This document shows positions 15,925-33,077 of a stretch of DNA of 64,000 nucleotides, piece after piece. The stretch covers positions 1-64,000 of the forward strand of contig CAMDGQ010000008.1 in assembly GCA_945897955.1 (NCBI GenBank), in the 5' to 3' direction. The DNA comes from Tepidiphilus sp. J10 (lineage in GTDB: Bacteria > Pseudomonadota > Gammaproteobacteria > Burkholderiales > Thiobacillaceae). Numbering within the stretch: position 1 is the first letter of the stretch; each line of letters starts with the position of its first letter. Under the pieces are notes generated by a model. The model ran no database searches, was not told the origin of the DNA, and saw only the letters and a list, made by a program, of their open reading frames with translations. The position numbers and the translations under genes were made by a program.

Positions 15925-17906
15925 AGTGGCGGTTGCGCTTCCTGGCGATCAGCTTGCTGCTGGCGCCGACAACGGGGTCGATGGCGCAGGAACTGAGCGA
16001 GGCCGATTTCTTTGCCGAGTTGCCGGAGGTGCTGACTGCCAGCAGATTGTCGCAACCGCTGATGGATGCGCCGAATTCGGTCACGGTTCTCGACCGGAAA
16101 CTGATCGAGGCGACCGGCTATCGCAATCTGTCCGATCTGTTTCGCCTGGTTCCAGGCATGTATGTCGGTCAGGAAAAAGGCTGGTTTCACAATGTATCGC
16201 TGCATCTTGCCGATTCCTTTGCCAGACGCATGCAGGTGCTCATCGACGGACGCTCGGTCTATTTGCCCAGTTTTGGCGGCGTGCGCTGGGATGCCTTGCC
16301 GCTCGCCATTGAAGATATCGAGCGGATCGAAGTGGTTCGTGGCTCCAATGCCGCCAGTTTCGGGGCGAATTCCTTTACCGGCGTGATCAACATCATCACC
16401 CGACACCCTGAAGATGTGGCAGGGCGCATGCTGCATCTGTCAGGTGGGGACCATGCCCATCAAGAGGGCTGGTTTCGCTGGGCCGGACAAGGCGGTGCGG
16501 CCAGCCACCGGATCACCCTGGGCCGGCGCGAGGATGGCGGTTTGATCAACCAGTTCGACGACGAGCGTTCGGATATCCTGAACTATCGCGGCGACTATGC
16601 ACTGGGCGGAGGGGAATCGCTCAGCATCCAGCTTGGCTATCTTCAGGGGGAACGCGGTTCCGGCGATTCGATAACGCTGTCGGATTTGCCGCATGACCAG
16701 CATGTGAAGAGCTACTCCCTGCAAGTGGATTACCGGCGGATGCTGTCCGGCGATCGGGAATGGATGCTGAAGGCTTCACTCGACCACCTGTTGACACGGG
16801 AAGTATCGCCCGCCGCGTTTCCGCCCGTCCTGCCAGCCGGCAGCTATTCCCTGCTTGATCTGTTGAGTCGGCGCTGGCATGTCGAGTCGCAACTGAACAG
16901 CGAACATGCGGCCGGATTGCGCAGTTCGGTCGGAGCCTACCTGCGGCGGGATCAGGTGCAGTCCGACTATTACTTCAATGTTGCCGACACCCTGAGCGCC
17001 GATTCGTGGGGCGTTTTTGGCCACCTTGAGTGGCGCATCGCACCGGAATGGCTGGCCAACATGGGCGCGTTTCTGGAAGGCTACGACACTGTCGGCACGC
17101 GACTGTCGCCGCGCCTGACCCTGCACTGGCAGCCTTCGTCGCGACATGCCTGGCGGCTGGGTATGTCGCGCGCCTATCGCAACCCGGCGCTGCTGGAAAC
17201 CTATATCACAACGATCAAGGATTTCCTGGGGCCGAACGGTGTATCCCTGGGCTTGCCGCCGACACAACCATATTTCGTGGCTGCCGGCCCGGTCGATCCA
17301 GAGGTTCTCCTCAGCCAGGAACTGGGCTATCTGGGCAAATGGCCGGAACATGGGCTGGACCTTGACGTGCGCATCTTCAATGAAAAAATTTCCGATTTGA
17401 TCGACGCCAGTTGCACCTCGCCTGCTACCAGAACCTGTAGCGGCATATTCCCGATCAATCCTCGCCGCTTCGACAACATCGGAGGCGCCGGCCAGAAGGG
17501 CATCGAAGGGCAGCTTAAATGGCAGCCAAGTGCCTTGACCGGTGTTATCGTCAACTATGCCGCGATGGATATCGACAGCGGCATCAATGACAAGCGCTAT
17601 TCCCCATCACAACAATACGGCCTGCATGTCATGCACGAGTTTTCGGGAGGACTCGATATGACCCTTTCACATTATTGGTTACCTGCGTTCAACCCCATCG
17701 GGCAAGGCGACCTGCATGGCTACAAGCGGCTGGATGCGCGTCTGGCCAAGCGGTTCAGGCTGGACGGATCCAATGGACAAATTGCGCTGGTCTGGCAGAA
17801 CCTGACCGACGATTACATCGAGTTTTCCGATGACAAACTGCCCAACGGAACGCCGTACAACCTGTTCGATAGTCGCTTCCAGGTCAATTTTCAGCTTGAG
17901 TTCTGA
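15918..17906 (+). CDS. TonB-dependent outer-membrane receptor
   Basis: Outer-membrane active transporter; ligand unknown. The 662-residue protein has a signal peptide (LRFLAISLLLAPTTGSMA), a plug domain starting near NSVTVLDRKLIEATGYRN, the RIEVVRGSNAASFGANSFTGVINIITR plug motif, and a beta-barrel ending in Phe (QVNFQLEF), as expected for barrel assembly. It overlaps dnaQ by 7 bases and is followed 22 bases later by a periplasmic binding protein gene. The segment after the signal peptide (DFFAELPEVLTASR) is very like that of the second receptor at 45467, so they are paralogues of the same subfamily. Confidence 0.93.
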   Translation: MVKWRLRFLAISLLLAPTTGSMAQELSEADFFAELPEVLTASRLSQPLMDAPNSVTVLDRKLIEATGYRNLSDLFRLVPGMYVGQEKGWFHNVSLHLADSFARRMQVLIDGRSVYLPSFGGVRWDALPLAIEDIERIEVVRGSNAASFGANSFTGVINIITRHPEDVAGRMLHLSGGDHAHQEGWFRWAGQGGAASHRITLGRREDGGLINQFDDERSDILNYRGDYALGGGESLSIQLGYLQGERGSGDSITLSDLPHDQHVKSYSLQVDYRRMLSGDREWMLKASLDHLLTREVSPAAFPPVLPAGSYSLLDLLSRRWHVESQLNSEHAAGLRSSVGAYLRRDQVQSDYYFNVADTLSADSWGVFGHLEWRIAPEWLANMGAFLEGYDTVGTRLSPRLTLHWQPSSRHAWRLGMSRAYRNPALLETYITTIKDFLGPNGVSLGLPPTQPYFVAAGPVDPEVLLSQELGYLGKWPEHGLDLDVRIFNEKISDLIDASCTSPATRTCSGIFPINPRRFDNIGGAGQKGIEGQLKWQPSALTGVIVNYAAMDIDSGINDKRYSPSQQYGLHVMHEFSGGLDMTLSHYWLPAFNPIGQGDLHGYKRLDARLAKRFRLDGSNGQIALVWQNLTDDYIEFSDDKLPNGTPYNLFDSRFQVNFQLEF

Positions 17907-17928
17907 GTCCCAGCGCCTGTCCTGATTC

Positions 17929-18846
17929 ATGTTTCGCCGACTCCTCTTTCTTTGCCTGATCTGGCTGGCATTGCGCCCGGCCTGGGCGGAAGGTGTCATT
18001 CATCTGATCCTGAGCGATAGCGGCGTCGCTTATCAGGAAGCATCCGAAGCCTTCCGCGCCGATATCGGCGCGCGTGCGACCGTCAAGGTCTGGACGCTTG
18101 CCGAACTCGGCGCCGAGCAAGCCCAGAATCTTTCACGCGTGGCGAAGATTCTGGTACCCGTCGGAGTCAAGGCTGCACGCTTTGTCGCCGAACATCACAT
18201 TGGCCAGGCGCCCGTTCTTGCCTTGATGATTCCGCGTGCGGCAAGCGAAAAACTGCAATGGCCGACCAGCCTGGGGCGCAGGAAAATTTCTGCCATATAC
18301 ATCGACCAGCCACCCAGTCGTTCGCTCGGTCTCGCGGCAGCCGCCTTCCCGGCTGCGCGCAGAGTGGGCCTGGTGATTTCGCCGGAAAATGCCGCTGTCG
18401 CGAAGGATTTGCTGAAGGAGGCGACGTTGCGCAATCTCAGATTGACGGTGGAAACCATCAATTCCGCAGATGATGTCGCTGCCGCGTTGCGCCGCGTGTT
18501 GCAGGACAGCGATGTCTTGCTGTTGGTGCCCGATGCGATCGCCATCAATGCCGGCAACGCCCAGAACGTCCTGTTGACCACTTATCGGTTCAGAACGCCG
18601 GTTATCGGTTTCTCGCAAGGGTTGTCCAAGGCCGGTGCGGTGGCCAGCGTGTATTCCTCGCCAAAGCAGATTGGTCAGCAAGGCGCCCAGTTCGTGCATC
18701 GCATGGAAGAGGACGGCGAGTTGCCGATGCCCCAGCATGCGGGAGAGTTTTCGGTCGTCTTCAACCCTCATGTCGCGCGTTCACTCGGGGTTGCCCTGCC
18801 GAATGAAACCGAAGTGCGCCGCAAGCTGGGAGCGCGGCTTGAGTAA
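17929..18846 (+). CDS. Periplasmic ABC-type substrate-binding-like protein (ABC_sub_bind family)
   Basis: Predicted periplasmic ligand-binding protein. The 305-residue product has a cleavable signal (FLCLIWLALRPAWA) and a two-lobed fold with features of the ABC_sub_bind family: VGLVISPENAAVAKDLLKEA, DSDVLLLVPDAIAINAGN and PVIGFSQGLSKAGAVASVYSSP. No ABC permease or ATPase is adjacent; instead the gene is sandwiched between a TonB receptor and a membrane GGDEF/EAL protein, so it more likely serves as a sensor or relay than as a transport component. That role is inference. Confidence 0.85.
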   Translation: MFRRLLFLCLIWLALRPAWAEGVIHLILSDSGVAYQEASEAFRADIGARATVKVWTLAELGAEQAQNLSRVAKILVPVGVKAARFVAEHHIGQAPVLALMIPRAASEKLQWPTSLGRRKISAIYIDQPPSRSLGLAAAAFPAARRVGLVISPENAAVAKDLLKEATLRNLRLTVETINSADDVAAALRRVLQDSDVLLLVPDAIAINAGNAQNVLLTTYRFRTPVIGFSQGLSKAGAVASVYSSPKQIGQQGAQFVHRMEEDGELPMPQHAGEFSVVFNPHVARSLGVALPNETEVRRKLGARLE

Positions 18847-18853
18847 TCCCTGG

Positions 18854-20929
18854 ATGAGCAATCGAGGCATCCGCCAGCGGGTACTGATGCTGGCGCTTCT
18901 GCCCTTGCTGCTGGTCGCGGCGGGACTGTCCTGGTATTTCATCGCATCGGCATTCTCCGAAATGGATCGCGCGCTCGAACGCCGCGCTCTGGATCGTGCC
19001 GATCAACTGGCGAAAGCCTGCGAGTTCCCCCTTTTCTCCGGCAACATGGAAGAGCTCGCGCGTCAGGCCCAGCCGATGCGACATGAATCCGGCATTCAGT
19101 CCGTCGCCATCTACGATCGCAACCAGGATGAGCTGTTCAAACAGGGCGCGCCGAAACGGGCAGCACATTGGCAAGGCACGGGGTCCGGCATCATTGTTCG
19201 TGACGATGACGGCATTCTGGTTATCGCGCCGATTACGCAGCATGCCCTTGAAATCGAGGATATCTCGTTGCCAGAAGTCGATGCAGGCACGGCTCCCAGG
19301 CTCGGCTTTGTAGCCCTGGAAATCTCCCGAAAATCCACCCGGGAGCGGCAACAGACCATTCTGCTGGCGGGCTTGTCGATCACCGCGCTTGGCCTGCTTC
19401 TGTCCAGTCTGCTTGCCTGGCGACTTGGCCGGGATATTGTGCGGCCGATCGGCGTTCTGACCCAGGCGGTGGAAAAAATCGCGGCCGGCGACTTGAACGC
19501 ACGCGTACAGGTCGAAACCGGCGGCGAATTTGCGCTGCTGGAGCACGGGGTCAACCACATGGTGGCCGAGTTGAAAAACTCTTACGACACCCTGCAGGAG
19601 AAAATTCGCGAAGCCACCGCCAAGTTGTCCTGGCAGGCGCACCACGATGCGCTGACCGGTTTGCTGAATCGATCCGGTTTCGATATCGCCCTGCAACAGG
19701 CTTGGGAGGGATCACGCCAGAACGGCGTGCGGCATTGCCTGCTTTATCTCGACCTCGATCAGTTCAAACTGGTCAATGACACCAGCGGACATCAGGCTGG
19801 TGATGAATTGTTGCGCCAACTGGCCGGAGAGATGCGACGCGCATTGCGCGCCACCGATGTCGTGGCGCGACTGGGCGGGGACGAGTTCGGCGTATTGCTG
19901 AGCGAATGCGATGCCGGCATGGGCGAACAACTCGGCGAAAAGCTGCGCCGCATGATCAGCGATTTTCGATTCTCCTGGCTCGGACGCTTGTATCAGGTCG
20001 GGGCAAGCGTCGGGCTGGTCGAACTGGATCAGGACTGGCCGGACACCGCACACCTGATGAGCGCCGCCGATGCCGCGTGCTATGCCGCCAAGGACGCCGG
20101 TCGCAACAAGGTGCGCCTGTACCGGCGGGGCGACGAGGAAGTCGAGCGCCGGCGTGGCGAGATGGCATGGGTGGGACGCTTGACGCGGGCGATGCAGATG
20201 GACCACTTTCGGCTTTATTTTCAGCCCATCGTCGGTTTGGCTGATACGTTAAGCGAACCGCACTACGAACTGCTGCTGCGCTTGCATGACGAAGAGTTTC
20301 CCGTGCTGCCAATGGCGTTCATCCCGGCGGCGGAGCGTTACCAGATGATGCCGACGATAGATCGCTGGGTTATCGAGCAGGCGCTTTACCAATGCGCCGA
20401 CAGTCTGCTGGCGCTGGATGGAAGACGCGTCATTCTTGGCATCAATTTATCCGGTGCTTCCTTGAACAATGCGCAATTCCAGGCTTTTATCCGTGCAGCC
20501 ATGCAGGAACATGCCAGCATCGCGCCGCAATTCTGTTTCGAAATCACCGAAACAGTCGCCATCTCCAATCTGGACTCTGTGCAGGCTCTGATCAACGACC
20601 TGAAAACATTGGGCTGCCGATTCGCGCTGGATGATTTTGGCAGCGGCCTGTCCTCGTTCGCCTACTTGCACAACCTGTCGGTGGATTATCTGAAGATCGA
20701 CGGCGCTTTCGTGCGGGATATGGTGCGTGATCCGATTGATGCGGCGATGGTGGAAGCCATCGCCAAGGTGGCGCGCATCATGGGAATCCGCACGATGGCG
20801 GAGTTCGTCGAAGACGCGGAAACAGCCATCGCGCTGAAGGGCCTGGGGGTTGATTTCGGCCAGGGCCATCACTTCGCCATCGCGCAGCCGCTATCCATGC
20901 TGTGTGCCGAACTTGCCGCGCGGGCCTGA
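18854..20929 (+). CDS. Membrane GGDEF/EAL cyclic-di-GMP enzyme with HAMP domain
   Basis: Synthesises and/or degrades cyclic-di-GMP. From the ATG at 18854 (691 residues) it shows a membrane helix (about 9-33), a periplasmic sensor of about 130 residues, a second helix (about 172-194), a HAMP linker with RPIGVLTQAVEKIAAGDLNA, a canonical GGDEF at 341-345 and an EAL domain in which the motif reads ELL at 472-474 with the catalytic Glu kept; DDFGSG at 593-598 and LKIDGAFVRD are also conserved. Both activities are therefore possible. It follows the binding-protein gene by 7 bases, suggesting that the periplasmic protein signals to it. Confidence 0.95.
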   Translation: MSNRGIRQRVLMLALLPLLLVAAGLSWYFIASAFSEMDRALERRALDRADQLAKACEFPLFSGNMEELARQAQPMRHESGIQSVAIYDRNQDELFKQGAPKRAAHWQGTGSGIIVRDDDGILVIAPITQHALEIEDISLPEVDAGTAPRLGFVALEISRKSTRERQQTILLAGLSITALGLLLSSLLAWRLGRDIVRPIGVLTQAVEKIAAGDLNARVQVETGGEFALLEHGVNHMVAELKNSYDTLQEKIREATAKLSWQAHHDALTGLLNRSGFDIALQQAWEGSRQNGVRHCLLYLDLDQFKLVNDTSGHQAGDELLRQLAGEMRRALRATDVVARLGGDEFGVLLSECDAGMGEQLGEKLRRMISDFRFSWLGRLYQVGASVGLVELDQDWPDTAHLMSAADAACYAAKDAGRNKVRLYRRGDEEVERRRGEMAWVGRLTRAMQMDHFRLYFQPIVGLADTLSEPHYELLLRLHDEEFPVLPMAFIPAAERYQMMPTIDRWVIEQALYQCADSLLALDGRRVILGINLSGASLNNAQFQAFIRAAMQEHASIAPQFCFEITETVAISNLDSVQALINDLKTLGCRFALDDFGSGLSSFAYLHNLSVDYLKIDGAFVRDMVRDPIDAAMVEAIAKVARIMGIRTMAEFVEDAETAIALKGLGVDFGQGHHFAIAQPLSMLCAELAARA

Positions 20930-20933
20930 GTGC

Positions 20934-22184
20934 TCAGGCCGCAGGCAGTGCGATCCTGCCGTCCTTGCTGAACTGGTAGTCGTGAAAAACATGCTCGGCG
21001 GAAAGCAGGGCGTAGCTGCCGTCTTCCAGTTTTCGAGAAGTATCTTTCAGGCGATAGGTGTAATGCCCGCAAGTCCACAGATCGAAGTCGCGCATGTGGG
21101 TACACAGGCAGGTCTTGTCCCATACCCGGATTTTCTTTTCTCCCGGATGCTCGGCAACCGTGCGGTTGTAGGCGTCGATGTAAGCGCAGCGCCCGTTCGC
21201 GTCGAGCAGATAACCGAAGGACTCGCAGTTGGGATGCGTGCCGGCGCCAATGGCGGGACTGCTCTTGATCATGCGCATCGGATAACCGGTAGGTGAAATG
21301 CCGTTGACTTCGATGTCGTCCTCGTCAGCCTTGTAATACTCCTGCTTGATCGGGTCGGGCAGGCCGCATTCCCTGCTCACGGTAAAGCGGGTGGCTACCT
21401 GAACAGCGGCGGCGCCATGTTCGAGGAAGGCGGTGGCATCGCTGCCGGTGAAAATGCCGCCGGCCGGGATCAATGGAATATCGAGTTGCTCGGCCTTGAG
21501 CCAGGTTTGTATCTCGCCGACGATGCTGGCCAGATCGTATTGCGCCCAGTCCATGCCGAAACCGAGATGGCCGCCGGCAAGCGGTCCCTCTACCACGACG
21601 TAATCGGGCAGCCTGTTGGTGCGCGCGTTCTTGCGGATGAACAACTGCAACGCACGCAGGCTGGAGACGATGATGCCGATTTGTGCGTCGCGAAAGCGCG
21701 GATGCTCCTCCATCAGGCCGAAAGAACCCAGATGCAGGCCGGCAGCCAGCGTGATGCCGTCTATGCCGGCGTCGAGCGCGGCATTCAGGCGCACTTTCAG
21801 GGTGTCCTTGGGCGCGTTCATGGTCAACTTTTCCATACAGTTGATGAACACCATGCCGGAGCCTTGCTTGGCATCCATCGCCCGGCGGACATGCATGCGA
21901 GTAGCTTCTTCCAGCTCGCCGAGATGGAATTTGACCAGGGTTTTATCGGCCAGATTGGTGACGTTGGCCTTGTAAAGCTTGAGCTTGTCCTTGACGAATC
22001 GGGTCTTGAAGTGGCGGTCGATGACGGTCGGCACCATCGCATCGGAGATATGACCTACACCGCCGAGGCGCGCGGCTTCAAGCGCCAGCTCCACGGTGGA
22101 AATATCGACCCCCATGCCGCCGATCATGATGGGAACCAGTTCGTGCTGGCCTAAGCGGAAGCGGAAATCATCCACGCATTTCAT
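20934..22184 (-). CDS. Nitronate monooxygenase-like flavoprotein
   Basis: TIM-barrel FMN enzyme of the nitronate monooxygenase / 2-nitropropane dioxygenase superfamily. The 416-residue product starts with LVPIMIGGMGVDIS and includes GPLAGGHLGFGMD (FMN/catalytic-loop region), IPLIPAGGIFTGSDATAFLEHGAAAVQVATRF (phosphate-binding strand) and a cysteine-containing C-terminal extension (DKTCLCTHMRDFDLWTCGHYTYR) that is unusual for the class and could bind metal or form disulfides. It is convergent with the GGDEF/EAL gene. The true substrate is unknown; a trans-2-enoyl reductase of the FabK type is an alternative. Confidence 0.85.
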   Translation of the reverse strand: MKCVDDFRFRLGQHELVPIMIGGMGVDISTVELALEAARLGGVGHISDAMVPTVIDRHFKTRFVKDKLKLYKANVTNLADKTLVKFHLGELEEATRMHVRRAMDAKQGSGMVFINCMEKLTMNAPKDTLKVRLNAALDAGIDGITLAAGLHLGSFGLMEEHPRFRDAQIGIIVSSLRALQLFIRKNARTNRLPDYVVVEGPLAGGHLGFGMDWAQYDLASIVGEIQTWLKAEQLDIPLIPAGGIFTGSDATAFLEHGAAAVQVATRFTVSRECGLPDPIKQEYYKADEDDIEVNGISPTGYPMRMIKSSPAIGAGTHPNCESFGYLLDANGRCAYIDAYNRTVAEHPGEKKIRVWDKTCLCTHMRDFDLWTCGHYTYRLKDTSRKLEDGSYALLSAEHVFHDYQFSKDGRIALPAA

Positions 22185-22381
22185 GTTGATCCTGGGTCTT
22201 GAAGTGTGCCGGCGAAGTGGCCAAGAAAGAAGGCAAGGACATGGGTGCGAACAGCCGGCAAGGTGAGCGAAATGGTTCAGGCGCGATGATAAGCGTTATA
22301 CGAGGGGCCAGCCAGCCGAAGCGCTGGCAGGGGGTGGCACGCTTTCCGGCCAGCATTTGCCCGGATTGCCGAATTCCCGCC

Positions 22382-22410
22382 TTGCCGGTTGGAAACAGGG
22401 CCGCTATAAG
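22382..22410 (+). promoter_or_regulatory. Candidate sigma-70 promoter of radA
   Basis: TTGCCG at 22382-22387, a 17-base spacer and TATAAG at 22405-22410 form a good sigma-70 promoter. The predicted start of transcription falls at or next to the radA ATG (22416), which implies a leaderless or nearly leaderless mRNA; no ribosome site is seen. Prediction only. Confidence 0.45.
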
Positions 22411-22415
22411 GCCGC

Positions 22416-23768
22416 ATGGCGAAAACATCCACCTCCTATGTCTGCGCCGAATGCGGCGGTCAAACTTCGAAATGGCAGGGCCAGTGCCCGCACTGCATGG
22501 CCTGGAACACGCTCACCGAATCGGTGCGTGAAGCCAAGCCCAGCCGCTTCCAGGCGCTGGCGGCGAATGGTGAAGTGGTCCGGCTGTCCGCCGTGCAGGC
22601 CCTGGAGACACCACGCATCGCGACCGGCCTGGCCGAGTTCGATCGAGTGCTGGGCGGAGGCTTGGTTGCGGGCGGTGTCGTACTGATCGGCGGCGATCCG
22701 GGCATCGGAAAATCCACCTTGTTGCTGCAGGCGCTGGCGGAATTGAGCACCCGAACCCGAACGCTTTATGTCAGTGGCGAGGAATCGGCCGCGCAAATTG
22801 CTCTGCGTGCGCGCCGACTCGGTTTGAACGCGGATATTCCGCTGCTGACCGAAATCCGTCTGGAAGCCATCTTTGCCACGCTCAAATCGGAACGCCCCGA
22901 GGTCGCGGTGATCGACTCGATCCAGACCGTCTATACCGACCAGCTCCAGTCGGCGCCCGGCAGCGTGGCGCAGGTGCGCGAATGCGCGCAGGAACTGACC
23001 CGCCATGCCAAGCAGTCCGGCATCACCATCCTGCTGGTCGGCCATGTCACCAAGGAAGGCACGCTGGCCGGCCCGCGCGTGCTGGAACACATCGTAGATA
23101 CCGTGCTGTATTTCGAGGGTGACACCAGTTCCAGCTTTCGCCTGGTGCGCGCGTTCAAGAATCGCTATGGGGCGGTCAACGAACTGGGTGTTTTCGCGAT
23201 GACCGACAAGGGATTGAAAGGCGTGTCCAACCCGTCGGCGCTGTTTTTGAACCGCGATGAACGCGAGGCGCCCGGTTCCTGCGTGGTTGTCGCGCAGGAG
23301 GGCACGCGGCCGCTGCTGGTCGAAATCCAGGCCCTGGTCGATGCCGCGCATGCGCCGAATCCGCGCCGTCTGACTGTCGGGCTCGATGGCAATCGGCTCG
23401 CCATGTTGCTTGCCGTGCTGCATCGCCACGGCGGCATTCCCTGCTACGACCAGGATGTTTTCGTCAACGCCGTCGGTGGCGTCAAGATCACCGAACCGGC
23501 GGTCGATCTGGCCGTCGCGATGGCGGTCGTCTCCTCGCTGCGCAGCAAACCGATTCCGCACAAACTCGCCGTGTTCGGTGAAATCGGCCTGACCGGCGAG
23601 ATTCGTCCGGTGCAACGCGGCCAGGAACGCCTGAAGGAAGCCGCCAAGCTGGGTTTCTCCCAGGCGCTGTGCCCGAAAGCGAATTTGCCGAAGGGCAGGA
23701 TCGCCGGCATGGACGTCGTCGGGGTTGGCAGCCTGGCCGAGGCTTTGGAGTTTTTTCGGGGGTTGTAG
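22416..23768 (+). CDS. radA: DNA repair protein RadA
   Basis: RecA-related ATPase that drives branch migration of recombination intermediates. The 450-residue protein has the N-terminal C4 zinc finger (Cys 10, 13, 24, 27), Walker A GGDPGIGKST near residue 90, Walker B VAVIDSIQT near 165, the diagnostic KNRYG motif near 250, and a Lon-protease-like C-terminal domain (YDQDVFVNAVGGVKITEPAVDLAVA). The start is fixed by homology to MAK-type RadA N-termini. Its -10 element lies only about 6 bases before the ATG. Confidence 0.98.
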   Translation: MAKTSTSYVCAECGGQTSKWQGQCPHCMAWNTLTESVREAKPSRFQALAANGEVVRLSAVQALETPRIATGLAEFDRVLGGGLVAGGVVLIGGDPGIGKSTLLLQALAELSTRTRTLYVSGEESAAQIALRARRLGLNADIPLLTEIRLEAIFATLKSERPEVAVIDSIQTVYTDQLQSAPGSVAQVRECAQELTRHAKQSGITILLVGHVTKEGTLAGPRVLEHIVDTVLYFEGDTSSSFRLVRAFKNRYGAVNELGVFAMTDKGLKGVSNPSALFLNRDEREAPGSCVVVAQEGTRPLLVEIQALVDAAHAPNPRRLTVGLDGNRLAMLLAVLHRHGGIPCYDQDVFVNAVGGVKITEPAVDLAVAMAVVSSLRSKPIPHKLAVFGEIGLTGEIRPVQRGQERLKEAAKLGFSQALCPKANLPKGRIAGMDVVGVGSLAEALEFFRGL

Positions 23769-23813
23769 CCGCCGTCGGATGTGCCCGCAAACCATGTTCG
23801 GGGCGAGCGTGCG

Positions 23814-24764
23814 CTACACGGGCGAGCTATCGTTCCTGACCATGGCCTGGAACTCCGCCACATCGCGGCGCGGTCCGATCACCACCAGTACATCGTCGTA
23901 ATCGAGGTTGTGATCAATGCCTCTGGCGCTGAAGATCATGTCCTTGCCCCGTTCCAGGTCCACCACACCCAGCAAGATGACGTTCTGAGTCATGTGCTTG
24001 CGCAACAGGCTCAGGCGCACGCCATGCAGCCAGGAGCCGATGGGGATGGTGACCTCGGCGATGTTCAGGTCTTGCAGCCCGAACACCGTGTGCTCCATGA
24101 GCTCCACCACCTCCGGCCGTTCGATCAATTCATGCACGCGTGCGCCACTGACCTCGTAGGGGTCCACCACCTTGTCGGCGCCGGCGGCCAGCAGCTTGGA
24201 TGCGGCATCGGGCGAGCGGCAGACGGCGACGATACGCAGGCCGGGGGCCAGCGCGCGGGCCGAGATGGACAGGAACACGTTCTCCGAATCCTCGCGCAGC
24301 ATGCAGAACACGCCTTCGATATGGGCGCCGATACCCACACCGCGCAGCGCGTCGTCATCGGTGTAATCGACCTGTTCCGCCGCCAGCCCTTCTTCACGCG
24401 CTAGCGCCACCAGGGCCGGGTCACGGTCCAGCATGACAAATGCCAGCTTGACCATGGACAGACGCCAGGCCACCTCGATGGCTAGGGCATTGCAACCGAA
24501 CAGCGCGAAGCGGGGGATCCATCCTGGAATCCTCAGTTGACCGCTCCCCAGCCCTTGAGAAGTCGCATGAAATCCGACATCAACGCCTTCGATCAAGCTT
24601 GCCAGGTGGGTGACCCCGCTACGCGGCCGATTACCCGGTTTTCGGGCCGTCTGGCTGCGTTGCTCCTCCTTGCGGGCCCCGGCCCGCCGCGTCGTCGCGC
24701 CTTGCCAGCCGGCCCGAAAACCGCGTACTCGACCGCGTTCAACTGAGGAATCCAGGATCATCAT
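23814..24764 (-). CDS. TrkA-type RCK domain protein (potassium channel regulatory half), N-terminus altered
   Basis: Probable cytosolic NAD-binding/RCK protein gating a K+ channel. Residues from about 86 onward form a TrkA-N Rossmann domain (RFALFGCNALAIEVAWRL, VAVCRSPDAASKLLAAGADKVVDP) followed by a TrkA-C-like domain ending MIFSARGIDHNLDYDDVLVVIG. The ATG at 24764 overlaps the stop of the upstream channel gene in ATGA, suggesting translational coupling. Residues 3-81 are encoded by a nested palindromic element and have no family resemblance. The Rossmann glycine motif is degenerate (GCNALA for GxGxxG). If initiation uses a later codon the protein would be about 235 residues. Confidence 0.7.
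   Translation of the reverse strand: MMILDSSVERGRVRGFRAGWQGATTRRAGARKEEQRSQTARKPGNRPRSGVTHLASLIEGVDVGFHATSQGLGSGQLRIPGWIPRFALFGCNALAIEVAWRLSMVKLAFVMLDRDPALVALAREEGLAAEQVDYTDDDALRGVGIGAHIEGVFCMLREDSENVFLSISARALAPGLRIVAVCRSPDAASKLLAAGADKVVDPYEVSGARVHELIERPEVVELMEHTVFGLQDLNIAEVTIPIGSWLHGVRLSLLRKHMTQNVILLGVVDLERGKDMIFSARGIDHNLDYDDVLVVIGPRRDVAEFQAMVRNDSSPV
24521..24758. repeat. Nested palindromic element inside a TrkA-type gene
   Basis: Outer inverted repeats of 20 bp (24521-24540 and 24739-24758, 19/20 matching) enclose a second, exact 14-bp pair (24636-24649 and 24710-24723) and a short GCGGGC/GCCCGC pair (24672-24677, 24682-24687) sharing the same centre. The unit is about 238 bp, has no transposase and stays open in frame with the surrounding gene. 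It resembles a non-autonomous palindromic (MITE- or REP-like) element; the family is not recognised. Confidence 0.7.
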
Positions 24765-26368
24765 TTTCCTTGTGCGCGTTTCCAGCCCCGGCTGGCGAAT
24801 TCATGAAAGCGGGACAGGCTGGCCTGGTAGCCGATCAGCATCAGCAGGTCGCCGGAACGGAGCACCAGATCGGGACGGGGATTGAAGTAGAAATGGCGGC
24901 CGGCAAGATCGAAGCGGACATGGCCATCGGCAGCGGGGGATTCGTTCGACCTGATCACACCGAACAGCAGCAAGTGGTGTGCGTTGATGTCGATTTCGCC
25001 GATGCGCTGCTTCTCCAGCCAGTCGCCGGCGCGCACGGCGAAGGGTTCGAGATGCACGCCGGCGGCGCGCGTAACTACGTCGTAAAGCGCATCGAAGGCC
25101 ACCGGCTGGCCAATGAACTCGGCGGCCAGCCGCGCCACGACCTCGTACGGCCGCACCACATGGGTGGCGCCGGCCTGCACCAGTTTGCGCACCGTTTCCG
25201 CCTTGTTGGCGCGGGAAATGATCAGGATATCCGGCGAAACCTGGCGAGCGGTGAGGGTGATGTAAACGTTGCTGACATCATCGTGGGTCAGGCAAAGGAT
25301 GCGGCTTGCCTCTCTGCCGAGGCCCAGATTGGAGAGGAGGGCGCTGTCGGTGGCATCGCCGGACACTGCCAGATAGCCTTGCTTGCGAGCCTGTTCGACG
25401 CTCTCCGCGCTTTTGTCGATGATCACGAAAGCCTGATTGGCAGCGGCCATGCGTTGCGCCACAACCTGGCCGATGCGTCCGAAACCGCAGACTATGGTGA
25501 TGCCGGCCAACCGTTCCACCGCCGCGAACACCCGATTGTCATGCAGCTCGCGCATTTTCTCGTGGAAGGCCATGACCACGATCGAGGTGGCGAAGGAAAT
25601 CACGCCGATGCCGGCGAATACCAGCACCATGGCCACGACCCGGCCTTCCGGCGTGACCGGCACGATATCGCCGTAACCGACCGTGGTGAGAGTGATGACC
25701 GCCCAGTAGAGCGCGTCCATCAGGGTCAGCACCTTGCTGGCCGGCGCTTCCGCCTCGAACAGATAGATCGCCACCGTCGCGATCAACAGCACCGAGCCGA
25801 CAAATACGGACAGGGTGTAGAGCTCGAATCGCTTCTCCACCAGAACCTGTCCGAAAGCCGTCAGGTTGCGGGTGTAGCGGAACAGTTTGAGCAGCCGGAA
25901 CAACAGAAACAGGCGCAGGAAACGCAGCGGCCGATAACTGGGCAGGATGGCGAGCAGGTCGATGATGGCCATCGGCGATGCAGCGTAGGCCAGCTTGCGA
26001 CGCAGAATCGCCCACAGCGCAGCCCCCGGGCGGAACGGCAGGCCCATCAGTTCCGCCTTCTCCCAATGCTCGATCATGATTTTGTGGCTGTCGTTGAACA
26101 GCCACATGCGCAACAGGTATTCGGCAACAAAGATCGTCACCACGATGATCTCGAACACATCCGCCCAGAGTCCGAGCGGATGGCGCACCTCGTAGATCAG
26201 CAGCGTCACGCTGCTCAGCAGCAGCACGATCATGAAACTGTCATACAGCTTCCGACGGTGCGAGCGGGGATCGGTCAGCAGTTTGTGGAAGAACCCCTTG
26301 AGGCCGGCGTAACGCGCCGAGGCCTGCTGTCGATAAGCCAGATGGACCAGCAAATTGGCAAGGGGCAT
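24761..26368 (-). CDS. Voltage-gated-type potassium channel with RCK (TrkA) domain
   Basis: Six-helix K+ channel. In the 535-residue protein, S1 (IVLLLSSVTLLIYEV), S2 (FEIIVVTIFVAEYLLRMWL), S3 (MAIIDLLAILPSY), an arginine-rich S4 (RPLRFLRLFLLFRLLKLFRYTRN), a pore with the selectivity filter TTVGYGD and S6 are visible, followed by an RCK domain with CGFGRIGQVVAQRM and a TrkA-C domain near the C-terminus. It resembles Kch/KvAP-type channels. Its stop overlaps the start of the downstream TrkA-type gene, which would supply a second RCK unit. Confidence 0.93.
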   Translation of the reverse strand: MPLANLLVHLAYRQQASARYAGLKGFFHKLLTDPRSHRRKLYDSFMIVLLLSSVTLLIYEVRHPLGLWADVFEIIVVTIFVAEYLLRMWLFNDSHKIMIEHWEKAELMGLPFRPGAALWAILRRKLAYAASPMAIIDLLAILPSYRPLRFLRLFLLFRLLKLFRYTRNLTAFGQVLVEKRFELYTLSVFVGSVLLIATVAIYLFEAEAPASKVLTLMDALYWAVITLTTVGYGDIVPVTPEGRVVAMVLVFAGIGVISFATSIVVMAFHEKMRELHDNRVFAAVERLAGITIVCGFGRIGQVVAQRMAAANQAFVIIDKSAESVEQARKQGYLAVSGDATDSALLSNLGLGREASRILCLTHDDVSNVYITLTARQVSPDILIISRANKAETVRKLVQAGATHVVRPYEVVARLAAEFIGQPVAFDALYDVVTRAAGVHLEPFAVRAGDWLEKQRIGEIDINAHHLLLFGVIRSNESPAADGHVRFDLAGRHFYFNPRPDLVLRSGDLLMLIGYQASLSRFHEFASRGWKRAQGK

Positions 26369-26497
26369 GAAGCGATGGTTGGCGAGGAAACGGGCGAATT
26401 ATACGGATAGGCCGGCAAGCAAAACCGCAAGGCCTGCAACTGCGGAAACAACGCGGATTCGAAGATAATCGGGCACCTAGACCCAGCCGGAGCCTTC

Positions 26498-26827
26498 ATG
26501 AAATCGTCTTCCCGCCTGCTTGCACTGTGCCTGCTTGCTTCCACCCCCGCTGTCGCTGAAGACTGGAGCGGCGCCGACAAGGCGCAGCATTTCGCGCTCA
26601 GTGCGGCCTTCGGCACGCTGTCGGCGATGCATTTCGAGAACAAATGGACGGCTTTCGGCGTCGCGATGATTCCAGGCTTGCTCAAGGAGATCCATGACGG
26701 CAGCCAGTCCGGCAACCGGTTCAGCGGCAAGGATCTGGCCGCCGATGCCCTCGGTGCGGCTGTCGGTGTTCAATTCGGCCACTGGATCGTCACGCGCAAC
26801 GGCGTCGGCTACCAGGCCGCGTTCTGA
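26498..26827 (+). CDS. Small exported protein, YfiM-like
   Basis: A 109-residue protein with a signal peptide (LLALCLLASTPAVA) and no lipobox cysteine. The mature part contains DKAQHFALSAAFG, a motif shared with YfiM/DUF2279-type small membrane-associated proteins, a short hydrophobic stretch and KDLAADALGAAVGVQFG, which could form a second membrane-embedded helix. It is divergent from the K+ channel gene and lies 70 bases before ycaO. Family assignment is by motif memory and its function is unknown. Confidence 0.75.
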   Translation: MKSSSRLLALCLLASTPAVAEDWSGADKAQHFALSAAFGTLSAMHFENKWTAFGVAMIPGLLKEIHDGSQSGNRFSGKDLAADALGAAVGVQFGHWIVTRNGVGYQAAF

Positions 26828-26897
26828 TCCGTCAGGCGGCCGCCCCGGCCGTTTTCATCCCCGCTTGGCTTCATTCACCCTCCACTCGGAACACCCC

Positions 26898-28622
26898 ATG
26901 CATACCGAAAGCTTCATCGCCGGCAAGGACGCCTCGCTGGAATCCTCCATTCAATCCATGCAGGACAAATTGTCCGACCTGGGTTTCAACATCGAGGAAC
27001 GCTCCTGGCTCAACCCGGTAGCCAACGCCTGGTCGGTGCATATTCGCGATCAGGATTGCCCGCTGCTGTTCACCAACGGCAAGGGCGCGACCGAACTGGC
27101 GGCGCGGGCGAGCGCGCTGGGCGAGTTCTTCGAGCGGCTGGGCTGCAATTATTTCTGGTCGCATTACTACCTGGGTGAAACCGTCGCGCGGCGCGAATTC
27201 GTGCATTACCCGCAGGAAAAATGGTTTCCCCTGCCGGAAGATGATGCCTGGCCCGAGGAACTGCTCGACGAGGAACTGCGCGCGTTCTACAACCCGGATG
27301 ACGCCGTGCCGGCCAGCGCGCTGGTCGATCGCAATTCCGCCAACGCCGCGCGCGGCATCTGCGCATTGCCGTATCAGCGCCAGCGCGACGGCGGCACGGT
27401 GTGGTTTCCGGTCAACCTGATCGGCAATCTTTATGTCAGCAACGGCATGTCGGCCGGCAACACGCCGGCCGAGGCGCGCGTGCAGGCGCTGTCGGAAATC
27501 TTCGAACGGCACGTCAAGTTCCGCATCATCGGCGAGGGGATTTGCCTGCCCGATGTGCCGGCGGAGGTCATCGCGCGTTACCCGAAAATCGAGGCCGGCA
27601 TCCGCGACCTGCGCGCCGCCGGCTTCGGCATTCTGGTCAAGGATGCCTCTCTCGGCGGCCAGTATCCGGTGATGAACGTGACCCTGCTGAACCCGAACGA
27701 TCAGGGCTGTTTTTCCAGCTTTGGCGCGCATCCCCGCTTCGAAGTCGCGCTCGAACGAGCGCTGACCGAACTGCTGCAAGGCCGCGCGCTCGACGCACTG
27801 GGCGATTTCCCGGAACCCGGCTTTGACCTCGAAGAAATAGCCGATGCACAGAATCTGGAAATTCACTTTGTCGATTCCAGCGGCATCATCAGTTGGGAGT
27901 TTCTGCGCGCGACGCCGGATTTCGAGTTCGCCGACTGGGATTTCGGCGGCGGAGTCGGCAAAACCACGGAGGAAGAATTCGCCTGGTTGTGCGAAGCCAT
28001 TCATGCCGACGGGCGCGATATCTATATCGCCGATTTCCCGCATCTGGGCGTCTATGCCTGTCGCATCCTGGTGCCGAGCATGTCGGAGATTTATCCGATC
28101 GACGACCTGGAATGGAACAACAACAGCGTCGGCAACCAATTGCATCAAAGCCTGCTGCACCTGCCGCAACTGGACGATGCCGCGCTGAGCGCGCTGCTTG
28201 CCACCCTCGACGAACTCGGCCTTGATGATCAACGCCCGGTGCCCGCGCTGATCGGGCTGGCCGAGGATGCCTGGTCGCTTTGGCATGACTTGCGTGTCGG
28301 CGAACTGAAATTGCTGATCGCGCTGGCGATTCGGGATCTGGATGCAGTGGCCGAGGGCTGCCAGTGGGTGCGCCAGTTCGATCAACTCGACCCGGATCGC
28401 CGCCAGGTCTATCGCTGCATCGAAACCTTGCTGCGGATGGACGACCCGGATGCTTACCGCGACAGCCTGCTCAGCCTGTACGGCAATTACTCGCTGACTA
28501 CCGCCGAGGCCATGTTGCGCGGCGAAGAGCGTTTCTTCGGACTGGACGCGCCCGGCATGGACCTGAACGGTTGCGTCATGCACCAGCGCCTGCTGCGGGC
28601 GTATCGCAAACTGGTTTTTTGA
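26898..28622 (+). CDS. ycaO: YcaO-domain protein, E. coli YcaO orthologue
   Basis: ATP-dependent YcaO-fold enzyme. The 574-residue product (start ATG 26898) matches the E. coli YcaO type along its length: FIAGKDASLESSIQ, SWLNPVANAWSVHIRD, NGKGATELAARASALGEFFERL, GNLYVSNGMSAGNTPAEARVQALSEIFERHVK and SFGAHPRFEVALERALTELLQGR. The C-terminal part is the TPR-like tail of that orthologue group, not an azoline biosynthesis partner domain. No precursor peptide or dehydrogenase gene is adjacent, so a ribosomally made natural product is unlikely here; E. coli YcaO has been linked to ribosomal protein S12 methylthiolation. Confidence 0.95.
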   Translation: MHTESFIAGKDASLESSIQSMQDKLSDLGFNIEERSWLNPVANAWSVHIRDQDCPLLFTNGKGATELAARASALGEFFERLGCNYFWSHYYLGETVARREFVHYPQEKWFPLPEDDAWPEELLDEELRAFYNPDDAVPASALVDRNSANAARGICALPYQRQRDGGTVWFPVNLIGNLYVSNGMSAGNTPAEARVQALSEIFERHVKFRIIGEGICLPDVPAEVIARYPKIEAGIRDLRAAGFGILVKDASLGGQYPVMNVTLLNPNDQGCFSSFGAHPRFEVALERALTELLQGRALDALGDFPEPGFDLEEIADAQNLEIHFVDSSGIISWEFLRATPDFEFADWDFGGGVGKTTEEEFAWLCEAIHADGRDIYIADFPHLGVYACRILVPSMSEIYPIDDLEWNNNSVGNQLHQSLLHLPQLDDAALSALLATLDELGLDDQRPVPALIGLAEDAWSLWHDLRVGELKLLIALAIRDLDAVAEGCQWVRQFDQLDPDRRQVYRCIETLLRMDDPDAYRDSLLSLYGNYSLTTAEAMLRGEERFFGLDAPGMDLNGCVMHQRLLRAYRKLVF

Positions 28623-28641
28623 CTTCTCGACAGGGACGTGA

Positions 28642-30561
28642 TCAACCGGCGCGCCGCTGCGCCCGCAATGCAAACCGCGCCGGGTCGATCGCATCCGTCT
28701 GATCGCCGGGCAGCGGCAGCGGCTCCTGGTTGATCAGACCAGCCAGGTGTTCCGCCAGTAAAGCCGCCCAGACCAGCCCGCGCGAGCCCAGGCCGAGCAA
28801 GCCGTACAAGCCGGGATGGCGCGGAAAAGCGGGTAAACGGAGATCGCTCGGCAACGCGGCATCCAGATTGGGCAGCGCACCGACCAGCGGCAGATGATCC
28901 GGTGTGGTGGCCCGGAAGCCAACGCGGCCGCTCAGGGCATGGACATCGAATGACTGCGTTGCGGTCGGCAGAATACGGGCCAGACGGTGCAGATTCTCGA
29001 CATGCTCGCTCGCACGCAGCTCGTCGAAGGTGTCCTTCGCATAGCTTGCACCGAGGCAATGCATGCCATCCACCGCCGGCGTCAAGTAGCCCTCGCAGCA
29101 GGCGGCATGCTGCAACGCCGGCAAGGTGCCGGCGGGCAGATGGCTGACCTGGCCGCGGATGGGTTGAATCGGCAGGTGCGCGGTCTGGGGGAATGACGTC
29201 ATCTCTGGACATGCACCGGTCGCGATGATCACGACGGGCGCGCTTGCCATTACCCGCCCCGTGCCATCCAGCAAAACCCAGTCCTGATCAAGCCGCCGCA
29301 AACCGGCAATCGCACTGTTGCCATGAAACGCGATGCCGGCGCCACCTTTGGCCAGCCAGGCATGACAAAGACTGGGCGGATTGGCCCAGCCGCCGGCGGG
29401 AAACCACCAGCCGCCCAACGGCGTTTGCGCGCCCAGCAAGCGGGCGGCTTCCGGAGGTTCGACAAAACGGGCAAAGCTGTCGGGGAAGCCGCTGGTTGCC
29501 AGCAGTTCGCGTTGCCCGATTTCATCCGCCGCATCCCGCGCGATCTGGAGCAGGCCGTTGAACCGGCGGCGCGGTGGGTAGCCCGCCTGATCGAGCCGAT
29601 GCAGGCTGCGCTGGAGATGCAGAAAACAGGCCCGATTCAAGCGTGAAGCGAGGTTGTCATCGCGCGACAACAACGGTCGCACGATCCCCGCCAGATTGCC
29701 GGATGCCGCGCTGGCCGGCGTGGCATCCCGATCGAACAGATCAACCTGCCAGCCGCGCACAGCCAGACGTTCGGCAATCGCGCAACCCGCCAGCCCGGCG
29801 CCGATCACCACGGCATGGTGGCGTTCATCGCGTGGCGCAGGTGTGGCCTGGCGTCGGCGCGTGATCAGCCGGCCGGCCAGCATCTGCCGCTTGCTGCCGA
29901 AGCCAGGACGCTTTTCCGGCGCAAACCCGGCTTCGCTCAACGCACGCCGGACATGGCCCGCGACGCACCAGGTCGCGAAGGACGCATTCGGCGCGGCGAG
30001 TTGCGCACAGCGCCGCAACAGCGCGGGCGACCACATTTTCGGATTCCTGTTCGGGTCGAAGCCATCCAGATAGAACGCATCGACGCTGGCACGCAGCTGG
30101 CGCAAGCTGCTTTCGGCATCGCCCAGCAACAGCGTCAACACCACCCGGCCGGCGGCAAACTCCAGTCGATGCCAGCCCGGCATCAATTCGGGCCAGGCGT
30201 TACGCAAGGCTTCGGCGAGAAACTCCAGCGGCTTCCAGGCGCGATGCACCTGTTCCAGGTCGGCAACCTGAAGCGGGTGCATCTCGGTTGCCAGGTAATG
30301 CAGCTTGTCAGGACGCAGCGGGTCATCCCGCCAGGCCGCCCAGGTAGCGAGAAAATTCAAGCCGGTGCCGAAACCGTTTTCAAGAATCACGAACTGGCGT
30401 CTGCCCGCCCAGCCTGCCGGCAAATCGTTGCCTTGCAGAAACACATGCCTCGCCTGGCCCGGCCCGCCATCGGCCGAGTGATAGATATCGTCGAAGGTCT
30501 TCGAAACAGGCGTGCCGTCAGGCGCAAAGGCGAGGCTGGCGGGGGTCAGGGAAGGTGACAT
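28642..30561 (-). CDS. mnmC: Bifunctional tRNA wobble-uridine enzyme MnmC
   Basis: Completes mnm5s2U at the tRNA wobble position: a FAD domain removes the carboxymethyl group and a methyltransferase domain adds the methyl. The 639-residue protein has the N-terminal methyltransferase (FVILENGFGTGLNFLATW near residue 58, DAFYLDGFDPNRNPKMWS near 170) and the C-terminal FAD-dependent oxidase starting at AVVIGAGLAGCAIAERLAVRGWQVDLFD near 250, with FRATTPDHLPLVGALP near 570. It follows hslO by 15 bases on the same strand and is convergent with ycaO. Confidence 0.96.
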   Translation of the reverse strand: MSPSLTPASLAFAPDGTPVSKTFDDIYHSADGGPGQARHVFLQGNDLPAGWAGRRQFVILENGFGTGLNFLATWAAWRDDPLRPDKLHYLATEMHPLQVADLEQVHRAWKPLEFLAEALRNAWPELMPGWHRLEFAAGRVVLTLLLGDAESSLRQLRASVDAFYLDGFDPNRNPKMWSPALLRRCAQLAAPNASFATWCVAGHVRRALSEAGFAPEKRPGFGSKRQMLAGRLITRRRQATPAPRDERHHAVVIGAGLAGCAIAERLAVRGWQVDLFDRDATPASAASGNLAGIVRPLLSRDDNLASRLNRACFLHLQRSLHRLDQAGYPPRRRFNGLLQIARDAADEIGQRELLATSGFPDSFARFVEPPEAARLLGAQTPLGGWWFPAGGWANPPSLCHAWLAKGGAGIAFHGNSAIAGLRRLDQDWVLLDGTGRVMASAPVVIIATGACPEMTSFPQTAHLPIQPIRGQVSHLPAGTLPALQHAACCEGYLTPAVDGMHCLGASYAKDTFDELRASEHVENLHRLARILPTATQSFDVHALSGRVGFRATTPDHLPLVGALPNLDAALPSDLRLPAFPRHPGLYGLLGLGSRGLVWAALLAEHLAGLINQEPLPLPGDQTDAIDPARFALRAQRRAG

Positions 30562-30576
30562 TGCTCTCCGGGCGGC

Positions 30577-31440
30577 TCAATGCAGGCGATGCGCCGGCGC
30601 ATCGAACATTGCATCGAGTTCGTCCGGGAGGACGCGGTAATCACGGTTGCAGATATCGTCACGCACATGGATTTCACCATGATCCCGCACAATCGCCTCG
30701 CACTCCGCGCGCCCCAGACTGCGCAACATGGCGTGGATTTTTTCCCAGTCCTCCGGGCAATGATGGCTGACTGCGCGCGGGGAGAACACGCGCACCTCCT
30801 CCTCGGGAAACAGACGGCGCAGCAACTCAAGCGGGGCATGCGTCAACAGCTCGTCGGCGCTCAATGTGGCAAGCAGATGACCGATGCGGTTCCAGCCATC
30901 AGCATCGTGCCGATCCGCATCCGGCAGCTTCTGCAGCAGCAACCCCGCCGCGCGCCGCTCGTTCGCCGCCAGAACAAGCCGTGTCGGCTGCTGCTCGGAC
31001 AAGGTCAGATAGTGCTCGAAAACCGCTGCAACACTCTCGCCCTGCATAGGCACAAAACTCTGGTAAGGCTGCCGCATCGCCGCCGCATCGAGCGACAACA
31101 GCAACTGGCCTTCACCCAGCAATGCCGGCAATGACGCGCCCGCTACCAGGGTTTCCTGATTCCAGCGCGCCATGCCGCGCAAACGCAACTGCTCGTCGCA
31201 ATCGAGAACCAGCAGATTGATCGCGGCATCCCCGCGCATCTGAAATGTCATCCGCCCCGGCTGCTTCAGATTCGCCGCAATCAAAGTCGTCACGGCGCTC
31301 ATTTCACCCAGAAGCCGCGCCACATCAACCGGATAGTCACGCCCGGCAGCGAGTTCGCGCCACGACTGGTCAAGCGAAACCAGCGCCCCGCGTATGTCCA
31401 GATGTTCGAAAAGAAAGGGTTGGACGCAATCGGTCGGCAT
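30577..31440 (-). CDS. hslO: Hsp33-type redox chaperone with altered zinc site
   Basis: Hsp33 holds unfolding proteins during oxidative stress and is switched on when four zinc-bound cysteines oxidise. The 287-residue protein has the N-terminal Hsp33 fold (RGALVSLDQSW, MSAVTTLIAANLKQPGRMTFQMRGD, LVLDCDEQLRLRGMA) and the usual length. The C-terminal switch is changed: by alignment with E. coli Hsp33, the CxC is CPE (Cys 228, Glu 230) and the CxxC is DDIC (Asp 261, Cys 264), so only the first and last cysteines remain. It lies directly upstream of mnmC on the same strand. Confidence 0.9.
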   Translation of the reverse strand: MPTDCVQPFLFEHLDIRGALVSLDQSWRELAAGRDYPVDVARLLGEMSAVTTLIAANLKQPGRMTFQMRGDAAINLLVLDCDEQLRLRGMARWNQETLVAGASLPALLGEGQLLLSLDAAAMRQPYQSFVPMQGESVAAVFEHYLTLSEQQPTRLVLAANERRAAGLLLQKLPDADRHDADGWNRIGHLLATLSADELLTHAPLELLRRLFPEEEVRVFSPRAVSHHCPEDWEKIHAMLRSLGRAECEAIVRDHGEIHVRDDICNRDYRVLPDELDAMFDAPAHRLH

Positions 31441-31591
31441 GGGAAATGGTCAAGAACGTAAGGCGACGAATTTTATCGTCGTTGCGGAGGAATGCCGGGG
31501 TCCAGTGCAGTCGGCTCATATAAACAACGACTTCTGGAATTGCTCAATGTTTTCAAAACCCTGTCAACTTATCGCTGGCCCCGGTCGGATT

Positions 31592-32413
31592 TCAGGCTTC
31601 ATGTGCTTTCGTTGTCTGCTTCTTGTCGCGCAGGTAGATAACCTTGTCGATATCGCGCATCTCGAACAAGCCGATGGCCTGGAACAGGTCTTTCAGCTTG
31701 GCGTAACCAAAATTGCGCGCATCGAAGGACGCCTGCTTGGCAATATGCTGGCCCACTGCCGCAAGACCGGCCCACCCTTCATCGTCCGCCGCCGCTTCAA
31801 CCGATTTGCGCAGCAGATTGACCAGACGGGTATTCGCCTTGAGTTCCTTGCCCCCGACTTTGCCGACCGCCGGTTTCTCGGCTGGCGCCGACGCCGCAAG
31901 CGGCTCCAGTTCCGGCGCGACCTCCGCGATGGCTGCTTTTTTCGGCGCGGCTGACGCGAGAGGCGGTTGCAGCACCGGCTCGCCCAGATTCTCCAGATAC
32001 AGAAACTTGGAACAGGCATTGACGAACGGTTCCGGCGTCTTCTTCTCGCCGAAGCCGAACACCTTCAGGCCATTGGCGCGGATACGCATCACCAGCGGCG
32101 TGAAATCGGAATCGCTGGAAACGATGCAGAAACCGTCCAGATCCTTGGTGTAAAGCAGGTCCATCGCATCAATGATCATCGCCGCATCGGTCGCGCCCTT
32201 GCCCTTGGTGTAAGCGAACTGCTGCATCGGCTGAATTGCGTAATCATGCAACACCGCCTCCCAGCCCTTCAGATGCGGACTCTTCCAGTTGCCGAAAGCG
32301 CGCCGGATGTTGATCACACCGTACTTGGCGAGTTCATCCAGGATTTCCTCGATCTTGCTCGCCGGACTGTTGTCGGCGTCGATCAGCAGCGCGATGCTGG
32401 TGTCGTGGTTCAT
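31592..32413 (-). CDS. NYN-domain (LabA/DUF88-like) protein with C-terminal OST-HTH/LOTUS-like domain
   Basis: Putative PIN-fold ribonuclease or RNA-binding regulator. The 273-residue protein starts with ALLIDADNSPASKIEEIL, keeps the acidic residues of the NYN fold (KGKGATDAAMIIDAMDLL; VSSDSDFTPLVMRIRANG), then has an Ala/Pro-rich linker (about 165-205) and a C-terminal domain (LVNLLRKSVEAAADDEGWAG) of OST-HTH type that ends in a Lys-rich tail. LabA-like proteins are common in bacteria; the target is unknown. The gene opens the accessory region. Confidence 0.88.
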   Translation of the reverse strand: MNHDTSIALLIDADNSPASKIEEILDELAKYGVINIRRAFGNWKSPHLKGWEAVLHDYAIQPMQQFAYTKGKGATDAAMIIDAMDLLYTKDLDGFCIVSSDSDFTPLVMRIRANGLKVFGFGEKKTPEPFVNACSKFLYLENLGEPVLQPPLASAAPKKAAIAEVAPELEPLAASAPAEKPAVGKVGGKELKANTRLVNLLRKSVEAAADDEGWAGLAAVGQHIAKQASFDARNFGYAKLKDLFQAIGLFEMRDIDKVIYLRDKKQTTKAHEA

Positions 32414-32455
32414 GGTGGGTCTCCTTGGTTTATTGGTGTCCAGATCGAATCAGGC

Positions 32456-33022: not shown

Positions 33023-33033
33023 ACTTGATTATG

Positions 33034-33049: not shown

Positions 33050-33077
33050 TTGGATAGTGCCGTTTCAAGTTGGCGGC

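Follow-up and report, generated by a model that had tools for sequence, protein, structure and literature searches.

A miniature inverted-repeat element family enriched at start codons, and its copy in frame with a TrkA-type RCK gene in Tepidiphilus sp. J10

The window analysed here, the whole 64,000-nucleotide stretch at the beginning of contig CAMDGQ010000008.1 of Tepidiphilus sp. J10, contains a TrkA-type RCK gene whose reading frame opens with some 80 codons of nested inverted repeats, raising the question of how a palindrome came to stand at the N-terminus of this protein and what it might do there. The original prediction had treated the palindrome as one structured unit of about 238 bp, translated without a stop as residues 3-81 of the RCK reading. 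Both the unit and the open frame were borne out: the arms lie where they had been placed, the outer pair (24521-24544 / 24735-24758) being 24 nt long and 92% complementary and the inner pair 35 nt long and 89% complementary, with an exact 14-nt core (24636-24649 / 24710-24723, positions counted by hand); on either strand the fold surpasses those of all 200 dinucleotide-shuffled sequences (z -9.3 on one strand, -9.1 on the other); and the frame runs uninterrupted from the ATG at 24764 to 23814. The length required correction, as comparison with other copies showed the extra AT on each side to be part of a 5-bp target duplication, leaving an element proper of 234 bp (Table 1). The palindrome is a mobile element, a copy of a miniature inverted-repeat element (MITE). 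Rfam covariance models gave no match within positions 24300-25000 up to E=1.

Table 1. Features of the RCK locus in the window and, in the last row, copies of one longer length class at the loci named
Feature	Position	Strand	Remarks
Single frame joining the leader encoded by the element (residues 3-81) to TrkA-type RCK	23814..24764	-	316 aa; TrkA_N 87-202, TrkA_C 235-308
Upstream partner gene, potassium-channel type (Ion_trans + TrkA_N)	24761..26368	-	TGA 24761-24763 overlaps ATG 24762-24764
MITE copy	24523..24756	- (gene-sense)	234 bp; orientation called M; from repeats and comparison with other copies
Terminal inverted repeat CCTGGAATCCTCAGTTGA	24523..24540	+	18 bp
Terminal inverted repeat CCTGGATTCCTCAGTTGA	24739..24756	-	18 bp
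Inner hairpin arm	24621..24655		Partner arm 24704-24738; repeat search and two-sided compensatory changes in 93 copies
Inner hairpin arm	24704..24738		Partner arm 24621-24655; repeat search and two-sided compensatory changes in 93 copies
Target duplication, upstream copy	24757..24761	-	5 bp; gene strand ATGAT
Target duplication, downstream copy, degenerate	24518..24522	-	Gene strand ATGGA
GAGG in element end (Shine-Dalgarno-like; putative role)	24531..24534	-	8 nt before retained ATG
Retained ATG behind element	24520..24522	-	One base out of frame with RCK: ATG GAT CCC CCG
294-bp copies	L008 1503-1796; L009 1350-1643; L011 1503-1796; L006 151-444; L010 1501-1794

Further copies, for which the original prediction had proposed a search, were found in abundance. 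The element gave 56 matches in its own genome at E<=10, of which 30 had E<0.001 and lay at 25 places on other contigs. The survey took in 61 genomes: besides the own one, 22 from its genus, 14 from the family and 24 from the order. A match at E<=0.001 was present in 33 of them, including 22 of the 23 genomes of the genus when the own one is counted; per-genome copy numbers are lower bounds, at most 12 candidates having been scored in each. From the collected loci 124 pairs of terminal inverted repeats were recovered, 122 of which could be oriented (L151 and L193 were left out, and L184 and L190 each give two overlapping pairs): 64 were 234 bp long, 19 were 235 bp and the rest ranged from 133 to 407 bp. 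A looser pattern, RRGGAGGAATCMAGGATG with 3 mismatches, proved too permissive and was dropped from the counts. The family ends (CCTNGAWWCCTCAGTTGA) are of the type CCTNGAWWC..C.GTTGA and are flanked by 5-bp duplications of the type WTNAW, such as TTGAA, TTAAA, TTCAA, ATGAT, ATCAT and TTTAT. Among the 122 copies in the duplication tally, restricted beforehand to those with at most 2 mismatches, the duplication was perfect in 69, had one mismatch in 40 and two in 13, the window copy (ATCAT at 24757-24761 versus TCCAT at 24518-24522, 2/5 mismatched) being among the 13. This tally comprises a main set of 110 copies, drawn from the 122 oriented pairs and having flanks of about 300 bases or more, at most 2 mismatches in the duplication and a flank not previously seen (composite or overlapping pairs still among them being L184 twice, L190, L228 and L260), and a hold-out set of 12 copies recovered with an end pattern that differed slightly, 11 of them in regions fetched for a transposase search after the leader pattern described below had been seen, the 12th being L178. 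The family is thus short, bounded by terminal inverted repeats, devoid of a transposase and present in many dispersed copies with target duplications, although the duplication is degenerate in the window copy.

Alignment of 93 copies of the 231-236 bp classes (L184 left out) indicated that the fold itself has been retained. The 60 pairs of the window-copy fold were formed in 93.9% of cells, and two-sided changes occurred somewhere in 42 of them; such changes filled 591 cells, whereas shuffling gave 173.5 and sliding the partners no more than 172. Within the inner helix, outside the ends, 26 of 32 pairs had two-sided changes. These changes suggest that the hairpin is kept either by compensatory change or by correction of one arm from the other.

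No autonomous element or transposase with the same ends was found in the collected loci. Long pairs of terminal repeats, taken as a possible mark of such an element, yielded three candidates, each of which involved a known short copy, and an element end beside an IS1380 fragment (L162) was ruled out as a parent, the locus being a patchwork of separate pieces. IS1380 and ISEcp1 elements make 5-bp target duplications. The profile PF13701 had no match in the own genome and matched in 10 of the 23 genomes of the genus; in one relative (G016, L160 1249-2968) an IS1380-type element has ends, CCCTGAATCCGCAAGTTC and CCCTGAATCCGCAGGTTA, that are similar to those of the MITE. This element, the one IS1380 hit whose ends could be delimited, is a possible relative of the missing transposase, judging by its ends, although these are not identical to the MITE ends and no duplication was seen at L160.

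The same site in related genomes shows that the insertion is a derived state. RCK orthologues without the element were found in six genomes of the genus (G006, G011, G017, G019, G004 and G012) and in one of another genus (G034), their N-termini reading, in that order, MTPRYALFGC, MTPKYALFGC, MTPRFALFGC, MTPPKFALFGC (twice), MTAKLALFGC and MTHAKLALFGC. A protein alignment agrees for the rows it contains, two of which are shifted at the N-terminus, L036 starting just past its M and L032 two codons too early. The comparison with uninserted orthologues that had been suggested for this gene thus gave seven proteins lacking the 80 residues, and together with the other copies this rules out that the palindrome is ancestral coding sequence. 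Two further genomes carry an element at this site, in the orientation of the window copy and with ATGAT on both sides in G008, and in the opposite orientation in G007. With all three turned the same way, identity is 64% between the window copy (G000) and G008, 68% between G000 and G007 and 75% between G008 and G007, compared with 85% between the window copy and a copy in G021, and the three elements therefore probably represent three separate insertions, and at least two, to judge from these identities. The start codon of acpS has likewise been hit in two genera (L207 and L050, in G016 and G028), resembling the recurrent insertions at the RCK start.

To place the copies relative to genes, the flanks of the 110 main copies were joined with one duplication kept and genes were predicted with a home-made, error-prone codon-usage gene finder trained on 29 genes of the window. 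By this measure 54 copies extend over a start or stop codon (by 1-3 bases), 42 fall between genes and 14 within a predicted gene, compared with 138, 480 and 2031 background WTNAW sites, respectively, in the same loci. The window copy, whose duplication is degenerate, belongs to the 110 and was classed with the stop overlaps rather than the start insertions. With interiors left out, 54 of 96 copies are at gene edges as opposed to 138 of 618 background sites (p=5e-11), bearing in mind that copies of a family are related and that Fisher tests here overstate independence. The enrichment extends to duplications of the ATGAW type, 26 of 47 being on a start codon versus 87 of 1136 background sites, and half of those (13 of the 26) are on a start and a stop codon together, an arrangement found at 10 of the 1136 background sites.

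This distribution bears directly on the resemblance, raised in the original prediction, to in-frame insertion within genes in Rickettsia. The window element shares with the Rickettsia elements (RPE) its palindromic form, an open frame and, at the RCK locus, in-frame reading, and two reviews describe RPEs as inserting inside proteins and persisting there as protein modules (PMC10969869, PMC2229807). The resemblance does not extend to the family, however, which has clear 5-bp target duplications, clusters at start and stop codons and does not lie in gene bodies as a rule. The main length class amounts to a net insertion of 239 bp (234+5), which within a gene would put the frame out of register; there is no codon-position signature. 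Seven of the 14 copies inside predicted genes have at least 60 bp on each side. Inspected by eye, five of these seem to be antisense or 5'-extended predictions, L254 has the appearance of an insertion close to the 3' end of a gene, and L244 that of a genuine interior insertion. As the rule of the family, insertion of the RPE type into gene bodies was rejected, 14 of 110 copies being inside predicted genes, and as an explanation of the element it is considered very improbable.

At a start codon the duplication copies ATGA(T/A), and the gene keeps a start directly behind the element. Genes in this position include lpxC, acpS, rodA, lptG and leuD; lpxC and acpS are essential in well-studied bacteria. 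Of the 30 start-site genes, 28 (all but the two RCK genes) were compared with family libraries. In a sample of ten proteins submitted to NCBIfam and read from the ATG behind the element, the equivalogs for acpS, moaD, trpF, lpxC, lptG and leuD placed model position 1-3 at protein residues 1-3 (seven proteins, acpS being present in two genomes of different genera), while the best models for the other three, RodA, TolA and an ABC permease, began at residue 16, 151 and 9. A Pfam sample of 20 proteins, two of them repeated, gave 18 family matches, including SecB, MutL, LpxD and Asp/Glu racemase, with no Pfam match for those at L222 and L239. By these matches most start-site genes are conserved, and for seven of them the profile places the start directly behind the element.

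The element end that faces such a gene resembles a ribosome-binding site. GAGG is present there in 27 of 30 start insertions, mostly as GAGGxxTCxAGG directly before the ATG, and is absent in L011, L050 and L239. Among copies with Shine-Dalgarno-like motifs at both ends, 25 of 68 are start insertions; the figure is 4 of 14 where a single end has the motif and 1 of 28 where neither has it (both versus none, p=7e-4), a contrast that is not significant within ATG/CAT-bearing duplications only (25/42 versus 1/5, p=0.16). In 20 of 28 start copies a frame opening at the ATG of the upstream duplication crosses the entire element and stops at a TGA overlapping the start of the gene, this start being ATG except for TTG in L005 and one L268 copy. 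The complete leaders occur in elements of 108, 132, 156, 234, 246, 249 or 294 bp, all multiples of three.

The alternative to a function in translation is that the family is a plain MITE tolerated where it does least harm, i.e. at gene edges, with the GAGG and the open frame being accidents of the consensus and of the youth of the copies. In favour of this view, transposition presumably fixes the ends, 43 of the 64 copies of 234 bp have an open frame anyway, and the P orientation retains it less often. However, counting the window copy as open and on the non-start side, the leader in the M orientation is complete in 14 of 15 start copies versus 32 of 88 non-start copies (p=3e-5), a retention that is shown statistically for this orientation, and in the P orientation in 6 of 13 versus 11 of 88 (p=0.008). 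Restricting the comparison to copies with GAGG at both ends gave 12 of 13 versus 21 of 47 in M (p=0.003) and 5 of 10 versus 11 of 47 in P (p=0.12). Greater youth of the start copies is not evident from their duplications, which are not clearly cleaner (21/34 perfect versus 48/88), and the leaders are complete across elements of seven different lengths. A plain MITE on tolerated sites is regarded as unlikely, though a serious contender. In the hold-out set 4 of 12 copies are on starts, and the three of these with an ATG in the upstream duplication all have a complete leader; they are included in the 20 above. No sign of selection on the leader peptide was seen, as there was no third-position excess of variation in the frame; a possible signal in stop counts was not taken as evidence, since stops were rarer than in shuffled columns, yet four other frames also fell below the null.

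Predicted folding suggests what translation through the leader might accomplish. In silico, the GAGG position has an unpaired probability of 0.00 in 13 of 13 whole folded elements and of 0.01-0.73 once the upstream arm is removed. Without translation through the leader the GAGG site would therefore be closed, being hidden in the folded element, and its unmasking fits a need for such translation in these models.

The explanation that we consider quite probable as a whole is that a MITE family spread through the genus and that a copy targeting WTNAW, here ATGAT, would have entered the point where the stop of the channel gene meets the start of its RCK partner, duplicating 5 bp. With ATGA(T/A) duplicated, the upstream gene would keep its stop and a further start codon would follow the element, whose end would supply GAGG about 8 nt before this second ATG. 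The first ATG would open a leader of about 80 codons across the element, normally ending at a TGA that overlaps the second start, and ribosomes arriving from upstream may open up the hairpin and pass translation on to the gene; both the use of the GAGG and the coupling through the leader are inferred from position, frame and fold. In the genome of the window, one extra base behind the retained ATG would then have abolished the TGA and placed leader and RCK in one frame.

The junction in the window, on the gene strand, reads AAGGAAAATG, ATGAT, the element and ATGGATCCCCCGCTTC. Read from the retained ATG, the window has ATGGATCCCCCGC, one base more than ATGACGCCCCGC in the closest orthologue (G006). 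As printed, the RCK is therefore out of frame with the retained ATG, whereas the frame of the upstream ATG runs across the element into it: the extra base removes the TGA of the leader and makes leader and RCK a single frame of 316 residues. With one base fewer the RCK would read MDPRF..., similar to MAPKF in G007 and MMTPKF in G008, which is what would be seen if the fusion were a sequencing or assembly error and the RCK in reality began at the ATG behind the element. The longer stretch contains a run of five C, and the assembly is still in draft form, with 128 contigs. However, no broken genes stood out among the 16 predicted at 15000-35000, and the printed sequence has no stop in the frame across the element; an error is considered rather improbable. 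From the sequence as printed, a 316-aa fusion protein may be produced. The part that the element would encode has a high content of Gly and Arg, and a weak AlphaFold model (7 sequences, mean pLDDT 43.5) showed no confident structure there, with residues 1-81 at a pLDDT below 50 and the first strand of the Rossmann part at 86. A candidate second fusion, L222 in G011, in which the frame also reads through the element, was rejected because an apparent signal peptide (by eye) begins at a TTG behind the element, where the gene starts.

A broader reading, held tentatively and with somewhat less than even confidence, is that the element is adapted to landing on start codons, those of widely conserved genes included, its ends carrying a portable ribosome-binding motif and its hairpin doubling as the leader frame. 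Translational coupling would then outlast the insertion and the hairpin would become a translation-dependent gate, with occasional one-base changes fusing the leader to the gene and creating new N-termini such as that of the RCK in the window. If true, a transposable element could occupy the start codons of conserved genes without killing them, a MITE would carry its own module for translation initiation and coupling, providing a directly testable case, and there would be a concrete route from transposon sequence to protein N-terminus.

YPAL elements are often located at stop codons. Together with ERIC, Correia/NEMIS and RUP elements they have in common with the present family a small size, terminal inverted repeats, a target duplication, a long hairpin, multiple copies and the lack of a transposase. 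Two reviews describe open frames in several bacterial MITEs and their fusion to genes, stem-loops and RPE insertions in gene bodies, and report YPAL to be co-translated with upstream genes (PMC10969869, PMC2229807); MITEAba12 is another described MITE (PMC6382973). From ERIC, YPAL, Correia/NEMIS and RUP, as these sources describe them, the present family differs in its 5-bp WTNAW duplication, main size of 234 bp, start-codon enrichment, GAGG ends and leader ending on the next start codon. The term 'start codon' is absent from the main texts of PMC10969869 and PMC2229807, no such element was described in the titles and abstract beginnings of a literature search lying largely outside subscription journals, and no literature was found on MITEs in Thiobacillus.

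There is also variation within the family. A second, degenerate copy is present in the window at 41811-41944, with a length of 134 bp, CAGCAG-type ends and no clean duplication. The CAGCAG-ended subfamily has copies of 235 or 289 bp, their length plus the 5-bp duplication being a multiple of three, and its copies L012, L017, L020, L024 and L030 lack GAGG ends, none being on a predicted start codon. The 294-bp copies carry an extra palindromic piece of about 60 bp in the hairpin loop, and the loops otherwise differ among subfamilies, as if the loop were exchangeable.
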